Below are positions 25,934 to 31,789 of a stretch of 64,000 nt of DNA, in pieces. How positions within the stretch are numbered: position 1 is the stretch's first letter; each line of letters starts with the position of its first letter. The translations under genes were made by a program, and so were the position numbers. The notes beneath the pieces were generated by a model. It saw only the letters and a list, made by a program, of their open reading frames with translations, did not search any database and was not told where the DNA came from. Source of the stretch: Picochlorum sp. 'celeri' (Eukaryota > Chlorophyta > Trebouxiophyceae); contig JAACMV010000004.1 in assembly GCA_010909725.1 (NCBI GenBank), positions 1 to 64,000 on the forward strand, in the 5' to 3' direction.

Positions 25934-26928
25934 ATGCATGCTAAAAGCGTCAAATCGTTTCCTGTACCCATGCCATCCATTCGGAGAAGAGACTTTTCGA
26001 AAAAAGAACTTTATGACTCGTATCATGATGTGGTTCTTGTTCCGGTGTCTGCCGACTGCTCGCGACGCAGGTATTTCAACAAAAGCATGTTGAGGCAGTT
26101 GGCGGATATTTGTCTCCAGGGCCGTTCGTTTGCGGCAGCAGAGTCGCCTGGTCTGAGAGCGGCAGTCCTCTCTTTTCAGAACTTTGTGATAGGCCCTGAT
26201 GCAGTAAAGCGTTACTTTGGCTCCTCACCAGGTGCATACGAGGATGAAAATTTAGTTCGACTCAATAACTTGCGGGGCAATCCAGGAGCGACTCACCAGG
26301 TGAGACTACGCGCGTGGATGGTTGTTGCTCTCTCTTTGTATCACTCGTGCTAACCCAGAGCAATGTGTGTTTGTAGTATCGCCGTGTGGGTCGTGGTATA
26401 GGCTCAAGCAAAGGGAAGACCTCTGGTAGAGGGCATAAGGGACAGAAGTCTCGGTCTGGCGGGGCACCAAAACTTGGCTTTGAGGGAGGGCAGACTCCCA
26501 TGAGATTGAGGGTTCCCAAGCGTGGCTTTCACAACCCATTCTCTAGGACATACCACCCGCTCAACTTGGATAGACTGAGTGCATGGTTGGATTCGGGGAG
26601 ATTGGACCCCTCCAAGATCATCACCATGAAGGATTTGAGAGACAGTGGTGCCGTCAGGAGGGACATTGGAAATGGTGTCAAGATTCTGGGGTCTGGTTCG
26701 GACAGTTTTGCATGGAATGTCAAATTAGAAGTGAGTCAAGTGTCGCGCAAGGCGAAAGAAGCCATTGAAAAGGCTGGGGGAGAGGTGACGACGGTGTACT
26801 ACAACGCTTTGGGTCTGAGAGCGCTGACAAGGCCCGAGTGGTTTGAAAAGAAAGGTAGGCGCATACCCAAGCCTGCACGGCCTCCTCCCAAACTTGCTCC
26901 GAAATTCGACCGGATAGGTTCGTTATAG
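25934..26928 (+). CDS. MRPL15: ribosomal protein uL15, organellar (mitochondrial type)
   Basis: Exons 25934-26299 and 26377-26928; intron 77 bases; 305 residues. The junction joins LNNLRGNPGATHQ to YRRVGRGIGSSKGKTSGRGH, the hallmark of bacterial-type uL15, followed by GQKSRSGG. An N-terminal extension of about 110 residues and a C-terminal extension rich in K, R and P are typical of mitochondrial L15; a plastid form is less likely. The first in-frame ATG is 25934. Its last 6 bases overlap the 3' end of the OTU gene on the other strand. Confidence 0.85.
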
Positions 26929-27645
26929 ATCATTATTTATTCTTCTGATTGCATTGTAATGCACTGGGCTCACATAGGCCAAGAAAACTTCTCCTCGAAT
27001 TGACCCATCTGGGATGTATCTGACGAACCAGTGCTGTTTGTCTGAGGTTATGACAGATATCATGCAATGGAATGCTTCGCTTGCTGCTCTCAAAGTCAGC
27101 TCGTCGCCCCAGCAGCCTTCCACACTCATCTCTTTCACATACGTGTCAAATTCTGGGCCGAGGTATGGCAGAAATCTCTGCCTGTTCAGGCGGATGTACC
27201 GGACCGCTTTTGATCTTACAAGCCCGTGTTTCTCAGGATTTCTAAAAATCTGTTTCGCAAGAGAGCGAAATTGGCAGTTTCCGTCCCCTGCCTGGACATC
27301 CACCTCAAGCCCCAGGCCTCTGAGCCTCTCTGCCAATCGCAGGTCATCATCCGGCAACAGCTCCCCGCCGCTCGAGGGATCCTTTGTATTCACTTGAATG
27401 GCTTCTTCTAGCAATTGCCGCGATTCTGTCCAATCGAGGTGCACCAGGTCTGCATCAGAGATCGGTTCAAGTTTTCTGAAGGAGACTGTCTGCTTGTCCC
27501 TGAAAGATACGTTGACCAGCAAGCTCTTCCCCACTGTCTCGGGTTTGGCAATCGATCTGAGCTTAGTGTCTAATTCCGAGCTTAATGCCGTATCCATGTA
27601 CGGTGGATCCACCTCTTTGTGCCGAAAACACCAGCACCAACTCAT
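26923..27645 (-). CDS. OTU-family deubiquitinase
   Basis: 240 residues from the ATG at 27645 (an upstream GTG is ignored). The OTU domain fills residues about 100-240. Catalytic loop AGDGNCQFRSLA gives D121 and C124; WGDELTLRAAS is the middle block; the C-terminal VHYN supplies the His. The N-terminal 100 residues are unassigned. Closest in layout to plant OTU6/OTU9-11 and animal OTUD-type enzymes. It cleaves ubiquitin chains; linkage preference cannot be read. Its stop overlaps the L15 stop by 6 bases. Confidence 0.88.
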   Translation of the reverse strand: MSWCWCFRHKEVDPPYMDTALSSELDTKLRSIAKPETVGKSLLVNVSFRDKQTVSFRKLEPISDADLVHLDWTESRQLLEEAIQVNTKDPSSGGELLPDDDLRLAERLRGLGLEVDVQAGDGNCQFRSLAKQIFRNPEKHGLVRSKAVRYIRLNRQRFLPYLGPEFDTYVKEMSVEGCWGDELTLRAASEAFHCMISVITSDKQHWFVRYIPDGSIRGEVFLAYVSPVHYNAIRRINNDL

Positions 27646-27673
27646 CGTTGCCTTGTGCCTCCCCCGGCCCACG

Positions 27674-27858
27674 CAGTGTTAAAAACGTAATGCCTATCTC
27701 ACCGCAATAAAACACATCGATTAATTATGGCATGCTTGGGGTCCCTCGATGAGAATGAGAATGTTGATCATCAGTCCAGTTGATGGACTCTACTAAAGTC
27801 TTGAGATCTCATCCTCTGAGATCTCTAAAACGAATGGGTCGAATGTCAACGGCTTACA
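27674..27858. ncRNA. candidate guide-RNA-bearing 3' flank of the Fanzor gene
   Basis: Non-coding stretch beyond the left inverted repeat. It holds a perfect 9-base stem (27803-27811 with 27817-27825, loop tcctc), about 150 bases past the nuclease stop. In TnpB and Fanzor loci the omega-RNA usually overlaps or follows the 3' end of the gene and ends at the element boundary. Whether it lies here or within 27859-27977 cannot be decided by eye. Speculative. Confidence 0.25.
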
Positions 27859-30420
27859 GTAAAATTTTTTAATTTCGTTTGTCGGACGGAATGTTCCAAA
27901 CTTGGAAGTTCCATCGTTCTCACTGCTGTATCTTGAAGCATAGCGTCTGCAAAAAGCAGCCGACTTACATGCCGAATTCATTGCCGTGTTGATGTCCTTT
28001 GCCTTTTCCTCGTCCTCTTGAAAGCCTTGATTCGAGCTCCATTGTGACACTTTTCCAAAAACAAGTCTTTGATATTGATACTGGCATTGACATCACGGTC
28101 CCAAACATTTCGAATGCATTCATTGTTGTGACAACGTTTCATCCTGAATTGTTTGTTGTACTGTTCCATTGCCTCATGACAGCAAGAACAGAGTTTGGAC
28201 GTATTGAATTCATTAACCAACACAACTGTGGCACATTCCGATACCTTGTTGAACAGTTTTGTGCTCATGATAGGAGCAGTGCCCCTCATTGTGCCGTTAT
28301 TATCACCATCACCATACGCCACGATGACTCTCTTCTGTGCCTCTTTGTTTCTTGTTCCACAGATTCGAGCAACCACATCCTCCATGGCCGACTTTTCCTT
28401 GCAAAATTTCCTCATCTTCTGTTTCTGATACCATTTTTTGTCATCGAAGAAGGCTTGTTGCAGTTGGGGCCACATAGAAACTTGGAATCTGTAACTCTCA
28501 AAAATTTTCTCAAGATCTACTGTCTTGTATGTTGGCACAGACATCCATGCAGGACAGTATTCAGACATCCTTTTCTTCATTTTGGCTGTATACTGTTTCT
28601 GACTAGATAAGAAGATCCATTCTCCTGACCCCAGAGAATCACTTTTATATCTGTCTTCCACCTCTGTATGACGACCATTTTCTGCATTCCACTTTGCATG
28701 GATCTTTTGCTTTTCCGAATCATGAAAAACCCACGTGGCCGCTGACTTTTTACCTGGGTCCAAACCGACAATGATACAATCTGTGTGATATATACCATGG
28801 TCATCTTTGCGTATGCCAGCCAACCTTTTGATCCTTTCTGTGATGACTGTCTTGTCTTTGTTTTTAGCCTTTCGTTTCTGTAGAACGTCCTTTTGTGACT
28901 TTAATGTATGCAACAATGGCTTCAGTAGAACATAATGTATGGTGGAAATGTCACCAAGGAGAATACGCAAAGGGTCATATCTGATCTTTTTTGCAATAAT
29001 GTTGGTTGCAAACATCCCACAATAGGTGGCCCACAACTTTGCTTTGACGTAGTTCGTATCATCCTGCAGATGGATTATCTTGCATTCCAGATCCGACTTC
29101 ACAGTGTCTATAACAGCAGAAACAGAGACGCCATCAGTGCATATAGAGCATCCGAATCTGAGTTTCGTTTGGTCCTTCATGTGCTTTTTTTTCAATACTC
29201 GCTTCATGTTGAATATCGATTTCCAATAATAATACTTATTTGTATAGTCATCCAGTGCTGGACAGTCATCTACTATCTTTCTGATATATGGATATTTCTT
29301 TGCGAGTTGCTCAACCATAGTCTTCACTGCTGTGCTGGAGATATGGATATGCTTTGGTTTCCAGGCCATCTGTGGACACAGACAAAATGTCCATTTCTGT
29401 CTTCCAAGTATACTCTTCTTCCCTTCAAACTCTCCGTTTCTGAACCTCTGTTGCAGTGATTCCACGAATGGCTCCAAGTGACCCAAAATGAAGAAGCAAA
29501 TTCTGGATTTCTCAGAAAGAGTTGTCGTCTTTGGCACCAACGAGCAAATGATATCCAAGGCTCTCTGTGCTTCATCCCATACTGACACATCAGACGCAAA
29601 TTCTGTCAATGATGGTCTACGTTCAACAATATCACTGACTTTCGTCCTCTCCCAGAATGCCTGTGTGATTGCAGAAAATACTTGTCCAAACTTCTTCTTT
29701 GACAAATTTTTGATTTGGTCAAAGTCCGTGTCGTCTCGAAATAGCAAATATCTCAGATACCGTAATGCATATACATTAAGATTGGTTTCCAAATGCGTGG
29801 TATGCATAACAGACGACTGCTGGGCCATCTGCTCCATTGTTTTGCCTCTCCAAGAAGAGAGACAACCCTGTGGCCAATCTGTTTTTAACCCAGTCTCCTC
29901 ACAATATTCCTTGCACAAGTCGCGCAAGTTGGTATCAACATCCTTTCTCTCCTTCTTTTGTTGCAAATGATTAGCAAGGTGTCTGTAGATTTTGTTGTAG
30001 AGTTCGTAGAGAGTTTCATCTTTGTGGTCTCTAAATGCCCCACCGTTCCTCAATAACAATAGATGCATGACATGATGCACATGAATCTGTAGTCTACTCA
30101 GATAGAATACACATTCTTCAATTTCGCGTTGAACCACTTTGAACTTACAAAAAGGCTGCAAAGTGCACTTGACGACTGTCTTATTGAAAAAACGGTCTTT
30201 ATCCTTCTTTATAGCCACATCCAATCGAGTAAACTTCTTTTTCTTCACCTGTTTCGATGGTGTGGCGGACACCTTTCTCTTTTTTTTCATTTTGAAATGA
30301 CACGGTTGGCGATGGCGGCTCGACTTCATACCAATCCAAGGTTCTAGAAGATTCGGATTGACCAGAGTCAAATGGACTAGATGTTACATTCCTTAATTAA
30401 ACGAAATTTAAAATTTTTAC
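27859..30420. mobile_element. Fanzor element bounded by imperfect inverted repeats
   Basis: Left end 27859-27880 and right end 30399-30420 are inverted copies of a 22-base AT-rich sequence ending in aatttcgttt, with 20 of 22 matches. A further 'ggaatgt' (27888-27894 and 30386-30392 reversed) also matches after a 7-base gap on each side. One gene, the Fanzor nuclease, fills the interval. No transposase gene is present, so mobility would need a partner in trans. A target-site duplication was not found with confidence, so the exact ends are open. Confidence 0.6.
27978..30329 (-). CDS. Fanzor (eukaryotic TnpB-like RNA-guided endonuclease)
   Basis: 783 residues from the first ATG (30329), no intron. 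RuvC-I: IIVGLDPGKKSA (D524). Canonical RuvC-II glutamate position is replaced by VIVAYGDGD; an alternative glutamate occurs in LVNEFNTSKLC (E707), the arrangement described for Fanzors. Zinc ribbon: C714, C717 and C733, C738. RuvC-III: VWDRDVNASINI (D746). A block TDGVSVS (about 398) is typical of Fanzor1. The N-terminus holds KMKKKRKV (about 13-20), a classical-type nuclear signal, and a second basic cluster KKKKF. All catalytic residues are intact, so activity is plausible. The AT content is higher than in the flanking genes, consistent with insertion. Known family role: RNA-guided DNA cleavage; guide and target motif here are unknown. Confidence 0.93.
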   Translation of the reverse strand: MKSSRHRQPCHFKMKKKRKVSATPSKQVKKKKFTRLDVAIKKDKDRFFNKTVVKCTLQPFCKFKVVQREIEECVFYLSRLQIHVHHVMHLLLLRNGGAFRDHKDETLYELYNKIYRHLANHLQQKKERKDVDTNLRDLCKEYCEETGLKTDWPQGCLSSWRGKTMEQMAQQSSVMHTTHLETNLNVYALRYLRYLLFRDDTDFDQIKNLSKKKFGQVFSAITQAFWERTKVSDIVERRPSLTEFASDVSVWDEAQRALDIICSLVPKTTTLSEKSRICFFILGHLEPFVESLQQRFRNGEFEGKKSILGRQKWTFCLCPQMAWKPKHIHISSTAVKTMVEQLAKKYPYIRKIVDDCPALDDYTNKYYYWKSIFNMKRVLKKKHMKDQTKLRFGCSICTDGVSVSAVIDTVKSDLECKIIHLQDDTNYVKAKLWATYCGMFATNIIAKKIRYDPLRILLGDISTIHYVLLKPLLHTLKSQKDVLQKRKAKNKDKTVITERIKRLAGIRKDDHGIYHTDCIIVGLDPGKKSAATWVFHDSEKQKIHAKWNAENGRHTEVEDRYKSDSLGSGEWIFLSSQKQYTAKMKKRMSEYCPAWMSVPTYKTVDLEKIFESYRFQVSMWPQLQQAFFDDKKWYQKQKMRKFCKEKSAMEDVVARICGTRNKEAQKRVIVAYGDGDNNGTMRGTAPIMSTKLFNKVSECATVVLVNEFNTSKLCSCCHEAMEQYNKQFRMKRCHNNECIRNVWDRDVNASINIKDLFLEKCHNGARIKAFKRTRKRQRTSTRQ

Positions 30421-31789
30421 GGTATTTTGTTTCAATCCCTACACTACAGTACTTATCGCAAAAAAACTTCGGCCGATTTTCGGAATCCAAATCTACACAT
30501 AAAATAATTACTTTTGGTGCCTATAAAGGATGCAAACGCGCACGGGAACACGGTGCAATTTTGCGTCAAACATGGCGAATTCGCCGAATTTGCCCACTTT
30601 GACGCCGTGGGTCCGCGCCTGAGAGACCCCTCACGTGTTCTCTTGCCCAACAAACCTTCTATTTTTTGACAGACACCATTCTCCAGCCTATTCGGGCTTC
30701 TTTAGGGCCTGATCCAGCGAGAAAATTTCGCGAAATTTCGGCCCGGCCACAACATAGATGTAACGGTCCCCATTGGCGGGGCCTGCTGACCGACCGAGAG
30801 TGTCGATTTCGAGCGTTGTTCCACGGTCCCTTCTGTCTCCATGCTTGACTTCCTGCAGTCCTTACGACGGCAAACTCCAATGTGAAAGGATGTTTCGTCG
30901 CAAAATGGGCCTTTTGACAGCTGTCGCCCTGGGACAAGACGCCTCTCCGGTGAAGTGACGACAACAAATTCCGCACATTTCTTCTCAGAAGGGACACCGG
31001 GCCGTGCCCTGCAAACGGGACACTGCCAATGTCTCCGTATGCGATCATGCGATCGGTATGATTGCGATGAGGGAACTGATGTGCCATCGCTCACGTTCCC
31101 TTGGCGACTCCTGCCTGCAGCAACATGTTGGACCAGTGCAGCTTGCCTGTGAAAGACGCACAGTGTGGATTACGGAGTTCGGTTGGAGCCATGTGACGCA
31201 TCTTCCATCTTTTTAAGTCATTCTCATGACGAGGTGAACCCACGACTACGATACTGTCAACAGGATACCTGATTCAGAGGTCATCATTCTCTATAGCAAA
31301 GTCCTCTGAGACGCAGCTGGTAAAGACATCTCGAGCGATTTTGCCTTCCTTTATCCTACATCTCTGGGGTGCAGAACACGACGCAAAACAGTTCGAAATG
31401 GCATGTAGATGTCAAGGGTGCATGTTACACAATACTGCGCGGGAATAGGAGACGGATTCGACAACTTGGACCACAGCATGGAGAAACAACGCAGCGGCCC
31501 TGTACATATGTGGTATGGACAACGAATAGATCTATCGAATTGGTACTATGTCCCCGAGAGAGTGCGCCATCGCTCAAGTGGCGTAATTGGAATGAATCTT
31601 TAGGACAGGTTAGGGGTTGCAGCCTGCCTATAAAGTCCTGGATAATGTACAGAGGCTGGGGTCATGTGGGACATATCCCCGGGGTTTTTAAGTCGTGATC
31701 ATCTCGAAGAACGCGGTAGACTGGGATTTCAAAATTATAGTGACAAAGTGGACGCATTCGATGGCCTGGGTAGGATTGATCAGACATTG
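30421..31789. other. gene-free interval next to the Fanzor element
   Basis: No supported gene. The frame on the minus strand at about 30702-31094 contains a CPVCRARPG string and more Cys, but it has no family I recognise and overlaps another open frame. A 16-base perfect palindrome (aaatttcgcgaaattt) sits at 30723-30738. The stretches near 31080-31240 and 31550-31710 share blocks such as 'gccatcgctca' and 'tttttaagtc' and may be old duplicates. Confidence 0.35.

Follow-up and report, generated by a model that had tools for sequence, protein, structure and literature searches.

Within the window, the whole 64-kb stretch of DNA analysed here (it opens contig C4 of the Picochlorum celeri genome, which comprises 27.41 Mb in 30 contigs), a Fanzor1-type nuclease is encoded by a short, transposase-less, TA-ended inverted-repeat element and probably provides RNA-guided protection of the insertion. 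The gene had been described in an earlier note as a complete Fanzor that interrupts its surroundings. Its sequence context strongly indicates that it is not a lone odd gene but is carried as cargo by a mobile element that has defined ends and is present in many copies (Table 1), and the two chromosome sets hint that elements of this sort may spread to the homologous chromosome by copying.

Table 1. Position of the Fanzor element and its components in the window
Feature	Position	Strand	Remarks
Whole mobile element, TA to TA	27855..30424	-	2570 bp; matches to other copies stop at the ends
Left terminal inverted repeat, TACCGTAAAAATTTTAAATTTCG	30402..30424	-	23 bp; pattern matches in the genome
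Right terminal inverted repeat, TACAGTAAAATTTTTTAATTTCG	27855..27877	+	20/23 bases as in the left repeat
Fanzor ORF, likely start	27978..30290	-	770 aa; 783 aa from ATG 30329
Basic signal KKKRKV	30270..30287	-	Residue positions; KRK-type N-terminus common to homologues
TNB zinc ribbon/RuvC-III (E707, C714, C717, C733, C738, D746)	28071..28229	-	PF07282, residues 701-753
Candidate target motif ATA at the left boundary	30423..30425	-	A before the left TA in 11/11 distinct left flanks
Candidate guide-RNA scaffold (non-coding 3' portion of the element)	27857..27980	-	Fold -31.0 kcal/mol, z -1.95
Candidate natural guide, flank at the right end (AGCCGTTGACATTCG...)	27835..27854	-	By analogy with published Fanzor RNAs

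The Fanzor protein and its relatives

The sequence of the window protein strongly supports its assignment to the Fanzor1 type, a eukaryotic relative of CRISPR nucleases. Its earlier identification as a Fanzor is borne out by a match to the Pfam family PF07282 (Cas12f1-like TNB; E=1.1e-8, better than the curated cut-off), by the catalytic residues with the alternative glutamate and by a profile match to Guillardia theta Fanzor1 (GtFz1). In numbering from ATG 30329, DPGKK begins at residue 524, YGDGD (at the canonical RuvC-II position) at 672, NEFNTS at 706 and DRDVNA at 744, which places D524, the alternative glutamate E707 and D746 where they had been claimed. According to the definitions quoted from PMC10711439, Fanzors are characterized by the RuvC-I DPG motif, present here at residues 524-526, and Fanzor1 by a TDG motif in the WED domain, present as TDGVSV at residue 398. 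The alternative glutamate is followed by six residues and then C714, the spacing that the Fanzor definition asks for. As to the zinc ribbon, the first half described earlier stands (CSCC at 714), but the second is C-x4-C (C733...C738) and not CxxC; GtFz1 likewise has C-x4-C in its profile alignment with the window Fanzor. The zinc/glutamate part of the published Fanzor search expression matches the window protein only with C-x4-C substituted, and the 180 residues between G526 and E707 fall outside its DPG-x(120-160)-E, although this expression, including its second CxxC, is a search aid rather than a definition. The TNB zinc-ribbon domain alone was found in the Pfam scan of the protein, and no family was matched in NCBIfam.

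The reading frame reported earlier (27978..30329, minus strand) is open, with no internal stop over 783 aa, but its start is more likely ATG 30290, because the aligned M-x-KRK position is the start of nine of the 12 homologues, the other three being either extended, as in the window (two), or truncated (one). Translation from this codon would place the basic signal, which had rightly been seen near the start (MKKKRKV at residue 14), at the very N-terminus of the protein.

The 12 homologues first found increased to at least 23 with a profile search (identity 37-97%), and DPG, E694 and D733 (E707 and D746, respectively, in the 783-aa numbering), the cysteines and TDGV are invariant across 22 sequences. 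The expectation that a profile search would align the protein with a known Fanzor held: GtFz1 (PDB 9cer) was matched with E=0.0014 using 13 sequences and E=3.5e-5 using 22. This was the only meaningful match of the profile to solved structures, and the alignment is partial, comprising the TDG stretch (TDGVS) and the zinc-ribbon stretch. A single-sequence search of solved structures with the window Fanzor returned nothing, and the SpuFz1 structures gave no sequence match in either the single-sequence or the profile search. Weak profile matches, such as those to OXA beta-lactamases, MCM6_C and Glyco_hydro_4C, were judged to be due to chance. Pattern searches for Fanzor relatives yielded 52 stretches in viral contigs and 33 in prokaryote genome contigs, none of which was confirmed.

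The same genome contains a second, distant Fanzor lineage (L046:108-3188, minus strand; C11:1142.4 kb; 1026-aa ORF), which is 29% identical over 154 residues and has the same DPG, alternative glutamate and TDG motifs; its best single-sequence match among solved structures was an unrelated chain (E 0.12). Additional distant Fanzor copies are also present, including open frames of 975-1034 aa.

Ends, copies and origin of the element

The inverted repeats are flanked by TA, as in Tc1/mariner (pogo-type) elements, and their pattern (up to three mismatches) is matched 50 times genome-wide, compared with 0 times for a reversed control. A near full-length element with 98.2-99.8% identity, and with divergence outside it, was present at 18 of 20 fetched loci, and in most of these 18 the DNA match ends at ~27854 and ~30427 of the window; the only locus that matches the window beyond the element ends lies on contig C30 and is the allele of C4. 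At the protein level, 58 Fanzor matches were found in the genome, including 13 that are full length without a stop. Ectopic copies differ by 2-46 substitutions and allelic copies by 0-4, and the element has multiplied recently, occupying at least nine sites. In the ORFs of L020 and L021, the differences from other copies are concentrated in one patch (codons 139-196), as if converted from another subfamily.

The gene had been noted as more AT-rich than its neighbours, and the GC content is indeed 39-43% in 500-bp windows over the element, compared with about 46-54% beside it. The claim that it interrupts a dense gene order applies to one side, where an OTU-protease ORF has the end of the element 182 bp upstream of it; on the other side, at 30.4-34.9 kb of the window, there is no ORF of at least 150 aa. 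Rfam and tRNA scans of the 64-kb window found nothing.

The window element contains no transposase of its own and no second sizeable ORF on its strand. The family DDE_1, which we take to be pogo-type, matches eight places in the genome, and DDE_3, the other Tc1-type family tried, gave no match. At C20:37.3-40.0 kb, an 893-aa ORF with a DDE_1 match (E=5.7e-13) lies directly upstream of an 809-aa Fanzor that is about 49-50% identical to that of the window. Since it has no transposase of its own and DDE_1 occurs only in the C20 relative, the window element would be at most a non-autonomous member of Tc1/mariner (pogo-type), with the transposase likely supplied in trans by a DDE_1-type relative. 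The left end of the C20 composite (TACAGTAAAATTTTAAATTTTCG at C20:40512) is related to that of the window element; the two share ~60 bp at this end (82%) plus a 20-bp block, past which the window element runs straight into the Fanzor. Judged from these sequences, the window element looks like a transposase-less internal-deletion derivative of the composite type. The pattern search found no right end for the composite, and a degenerate candidate was recognized by eye ~140 bp after the Fanzor stop.

A 531-bp Fanzor-less element with related ends occurs at C2:1322212-1322742 and C22:1296350-1296880. A 2.8-kb stretch inside the C15 and C27 copies was considered as the missing transposase and rejected, its longest stop-to-stop frame being 206 codons; it is a separate, unclassified repeat, X (L021:521-3299), which has inserted into these two copies 29 bp in from the left end, abuts the Fanzor copies of C13, C29, C1 and C21, and is present mostly on one haplotype.

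Proposed function, allelic copies and empty sites

According to the explanation proposed here, the element would move in trans via a transposase like the DDE_1 protein of the C20 composite, and the Fanzor would bind an RNA from the 3' end of the element, the last ~15 nt of which would be flanking DNA. The complex would cut element-free copies of the insertion site, which present the ATA motif followed by the right flank, and would spare its own locus, where the right end is GTA; repair off the filled copy would then restore or copy the element. A guide RNA and RNA-guided retention are put forward as candidates, the latter being expected from the family.

Every distinct left flank has A immediately ahead of the left TA (Table 1), whereas the base after the right TA is A at six, C at two and T at one of nine sites, and so the flank preference is not the mirror image expected of a symmetric TA target. 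Because the right end of the element reads ...CTGTA and so presents GTA, a nuclease that recognizes ATA followed by the right flank would leave filled sites intact and cleave those without the element. ATA, which is near the CATA of SpuFz1, is a candidate target motif, although a transposase preference could explain part of the A-before-TA pattern, since the -1 base of the C20 composite is T, not A, and the 531-bp Fanzor-less element is flanked by ATA...TAA. At L009, L012, L018 and L020, the base after the left TA equals that after the right TA (TAA/TAA, TAC/TAC, TAC/TAC and TAT/TAT, respectively), and the five remaining sites have TAC on the left and TAA on the right; the former pattern might reflect end editing or a duplication of 3 bp.

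In the predicted fold of the 3' region of the element (125 nt), a stem closes at the end of the element. The fold signal is weak, and the z-score given in Table 1 changes to 0.00 once the stretch is extended by 100 nt of coding sequence; the 3' region of the C20 composite folds better (z -3.25). Guide searches covered five of the nine sites. Beyond the guides' own right flanks, one gave the TA-less C30 copy described below, and another gave four places with three mismatches, compared with eight in the reversed control.

P. celeri has been described as a phased diploid with 27.43 Mbp divided between two 15-scaffold sets (N50 1.151 Mbp, SNP heterozygosity 0.8%), assembled as FALCON-Phase pseudohaplotypes with no short-read polishing (PMC7225527; Becker et al. 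2020). The contig pairs that share sites in aligned 9-kb stretches are C4/C30, C8/C17, C15/C27, C22/C2, C13/C29 and C11/C19. This allows a tentative reading to be considered, namely homing: in a vegetatively diploid alga, the Fanzor might use the flank as guide and cut the empty allele on the partner chromosome at ATA plus flank, with repair copying the insertion across, which would constitute a natural RNA-guided drive within the diploid. Insertions would then become homozygous, allelic copies would become identical, conversion tracts of a few kilobases would be left behind, and any remaining empty sites would be those that had lost the motif or mismatch the guide.

The distribution of the insertions is in line with homing, as the element occupies both haplotypes at eight of nine sites (a count that leaves out the C22:13.7-kb fragment and the C21/C1 array). 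Repeat X is found on both haplotypes at only three of 12 loci (26/26 candidates scored; Fisher P=0.0075), but with X loci restricted to those with a known partner contig the comparison becomes 8/9 vs 3/7 (P=0.11), and X is less subtelomeric than the Fanzor element, so that the control comparison is not clean. Allelic copies are also more alike than their flanks, with six SNPs in 18,015 element bp vs 150 in 43,241 flank bp across seven pairs (circular-shift P=0.0002; 20,000 trials). Coding constraint alone does not explain this identity, because recent copies are without visible purifying selection (pN/pS 0.56-1.99 in five comparisons). On the other hand, the eighth pair, L017/L018, which was left out of the test owing to its rearranged flank, has seven mismatches inside the aligned element, all near its ends, and the pair L022/L023 retains four SNPs. 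The window copy itself lies in a SNP-free tract that would fit homing, as five consecutive 1-kb bins (28-33 kb) contain 0 SNPs between C4 and C30, and the other 23 bins shown contain 2-25; a C4/C30 indel is located 20 bp past the right end of the window element.

Two empty sites also bear on homing. At C30:36404-38040 (relative to window 33655), the C30 haplotype carries a haplotype-specific 1.63-kb duplicate of window 26227-27855, corresponding to its own right flank. The duplicate runs directly into ~11 bp of left flank, and the junction contains no element and no TA; as this is the sole empty copy with both flanks, a TA target-site duplication is putative. The duplicate agrees with C30 wherever C4 differs from it, at nine SNPs and one indel of 3 bp (10 differences). 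The C30 haplotype therefore carried an empty site at some time after the two haplotypes had separated, which was either before the insertion was gained or after an excision that took both TAs. The second site, C15:5.04 kb, is the empty allele of the C27:10.5-kb insertion and retains ATA and the right flank, with a mismatch to the C27 guide at position 9. Its value for homing is lessened by its left flank, which differs from that of C27, so that the C27 arm was swapped at the element in a subtelomere exchange for which the Fanzor element forms the junction. The joined-flank search for empty sites, in which 40 of 114 candidates were scored, crossed these two junctions, one at C30:38.0 kb and the other, in which just seven left bases are matched, at C15:5.04 kb. 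Both surviving empty sites would escape the proposed nuclease, one having no TA and the other mismatching the guide, which, in two cases, is suggestive only. Loss of heterozygosity, which is common in asexual diploids, is a possible alternative cause of the homozygosity. FALCON-Phase pseudohaplotypes may also show one sequence in both phases where reads are unphased. The assembly was not polished with short reads (PMC7225527).

It is unlikely that the element is an ordinary cut-and-paste transposon in which the Fanzor no longer matters, spread by transposition and subtelomere recombination, with homozygosity reflecting age, loss of heterozygosity or assembly. The pN/pS values of recent copies, which lie near 1, would fit such a history, as would the broken copies, since stops are present in three of the 16 copies that have one long match of at least 95% identity and the C30, C21 and C1 copies are in pieces. 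The position of nine of 10 sites less than 70 kb from a contig end, where exchange is frequent, points in the same direction (12.8% expected, P=8e-8, with contig ends treated as chromosome ends and the C13/C29 scaffolds left out), and the C27 copy is located at the swap junction. However, the thirteen intact ORFs, the invariance of the catalytic residues in 22 relatives and the constraint on older divergence (pN/pS 0.29-0.33 in three comparisons with the L020 subtype) argue against it. Domestication of the Fanzor for a cellular job in the host is highly improbable: the gene is intact and has a basic N-terminal signal, but numerous copies that are almost identical and have element ends occupy different sites. 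RNA-guided protection of the insertion is retained as the probable reading.

Comparison with known Fanzor elements

The element is of a known kind, because Fanzor1 has been described in Tc1/mariner-type elements that carry either a transposase or the Fanzor only, with the same ends (PMC3627910; Bao and Jurka 2013). As in those elements, the window Fanzor1 lies inside inverted repeats next to TA; unlike the elements described there, the present one is associated with the transposase family DDE_1, resides in a green algal host and can be seen at both alleles of a phased diploid. Carriage by a eukaryotic transposon other than IS607, a Fanzor1 trait, is evident from the inverted repeats, the copies and the DDE_1 relative.

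The ~2.1-kb SpuFz1 element of Spizellomyces punctatus is similar in having a single ORF, inverted repeats and many copies. As reported in PMC10432273 (Saito 2023), its inverted repeats are preceded by CA, its motif is CATA and its guide is 14-15 nt long, with Fanzor RNAs reaching 14-15 nt past the element. Both elements have conserved bases just outside the left repeat, and the candidate motif ATA here stands beside CATA for SpuFz1. Spizellomyces also has elements that share related ends but lack an ORF, published as 'ghost' elements, and the 531-bp element resembles these. The window element differs from SpuFz1 in that its motif and RNA are deduced from sequence, and the window protein does not match the SpuFz1 structures. 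With GtFz1 the window Fanzor has the TDG and zinc-ribbon stretches in common, whereas the published GtFz1 motif is TTAAN (PMC10432273) and the candidate here is ATA.

Among green algae, the most abundant repeat of Auxenochlorella, a streamlined diploid, encodes a Fanzor (PMC12633428); this protein is likened to the window Fanzor by description, and a Picochlorum Fanzor is not mentioned in the text drawn on from that source. The literature cited here, as far as it is covered, leaves the natural benefit of Fanzors to their elements unsettled. This fast-growing, non-pathogenic alga is a phased diploid that has both filled and empty sites, for which a motif and guides can be proposed, as well as a composite relative that carries a transposase; it offers a system in which transposon retention or homing could be approached directly. 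Fanzor homing between alleles is not named in the titles or abstracts listed from the open-licence literature on Fanzors. For bacteria, a drive in plasmids by the IS200/605 TnpB has been shown experimentally (PMC11870625), and the mechanism described there, in which the nuclease spreads its element to empty copies, corresponds to the homing considered here on the basis of genome patterns.
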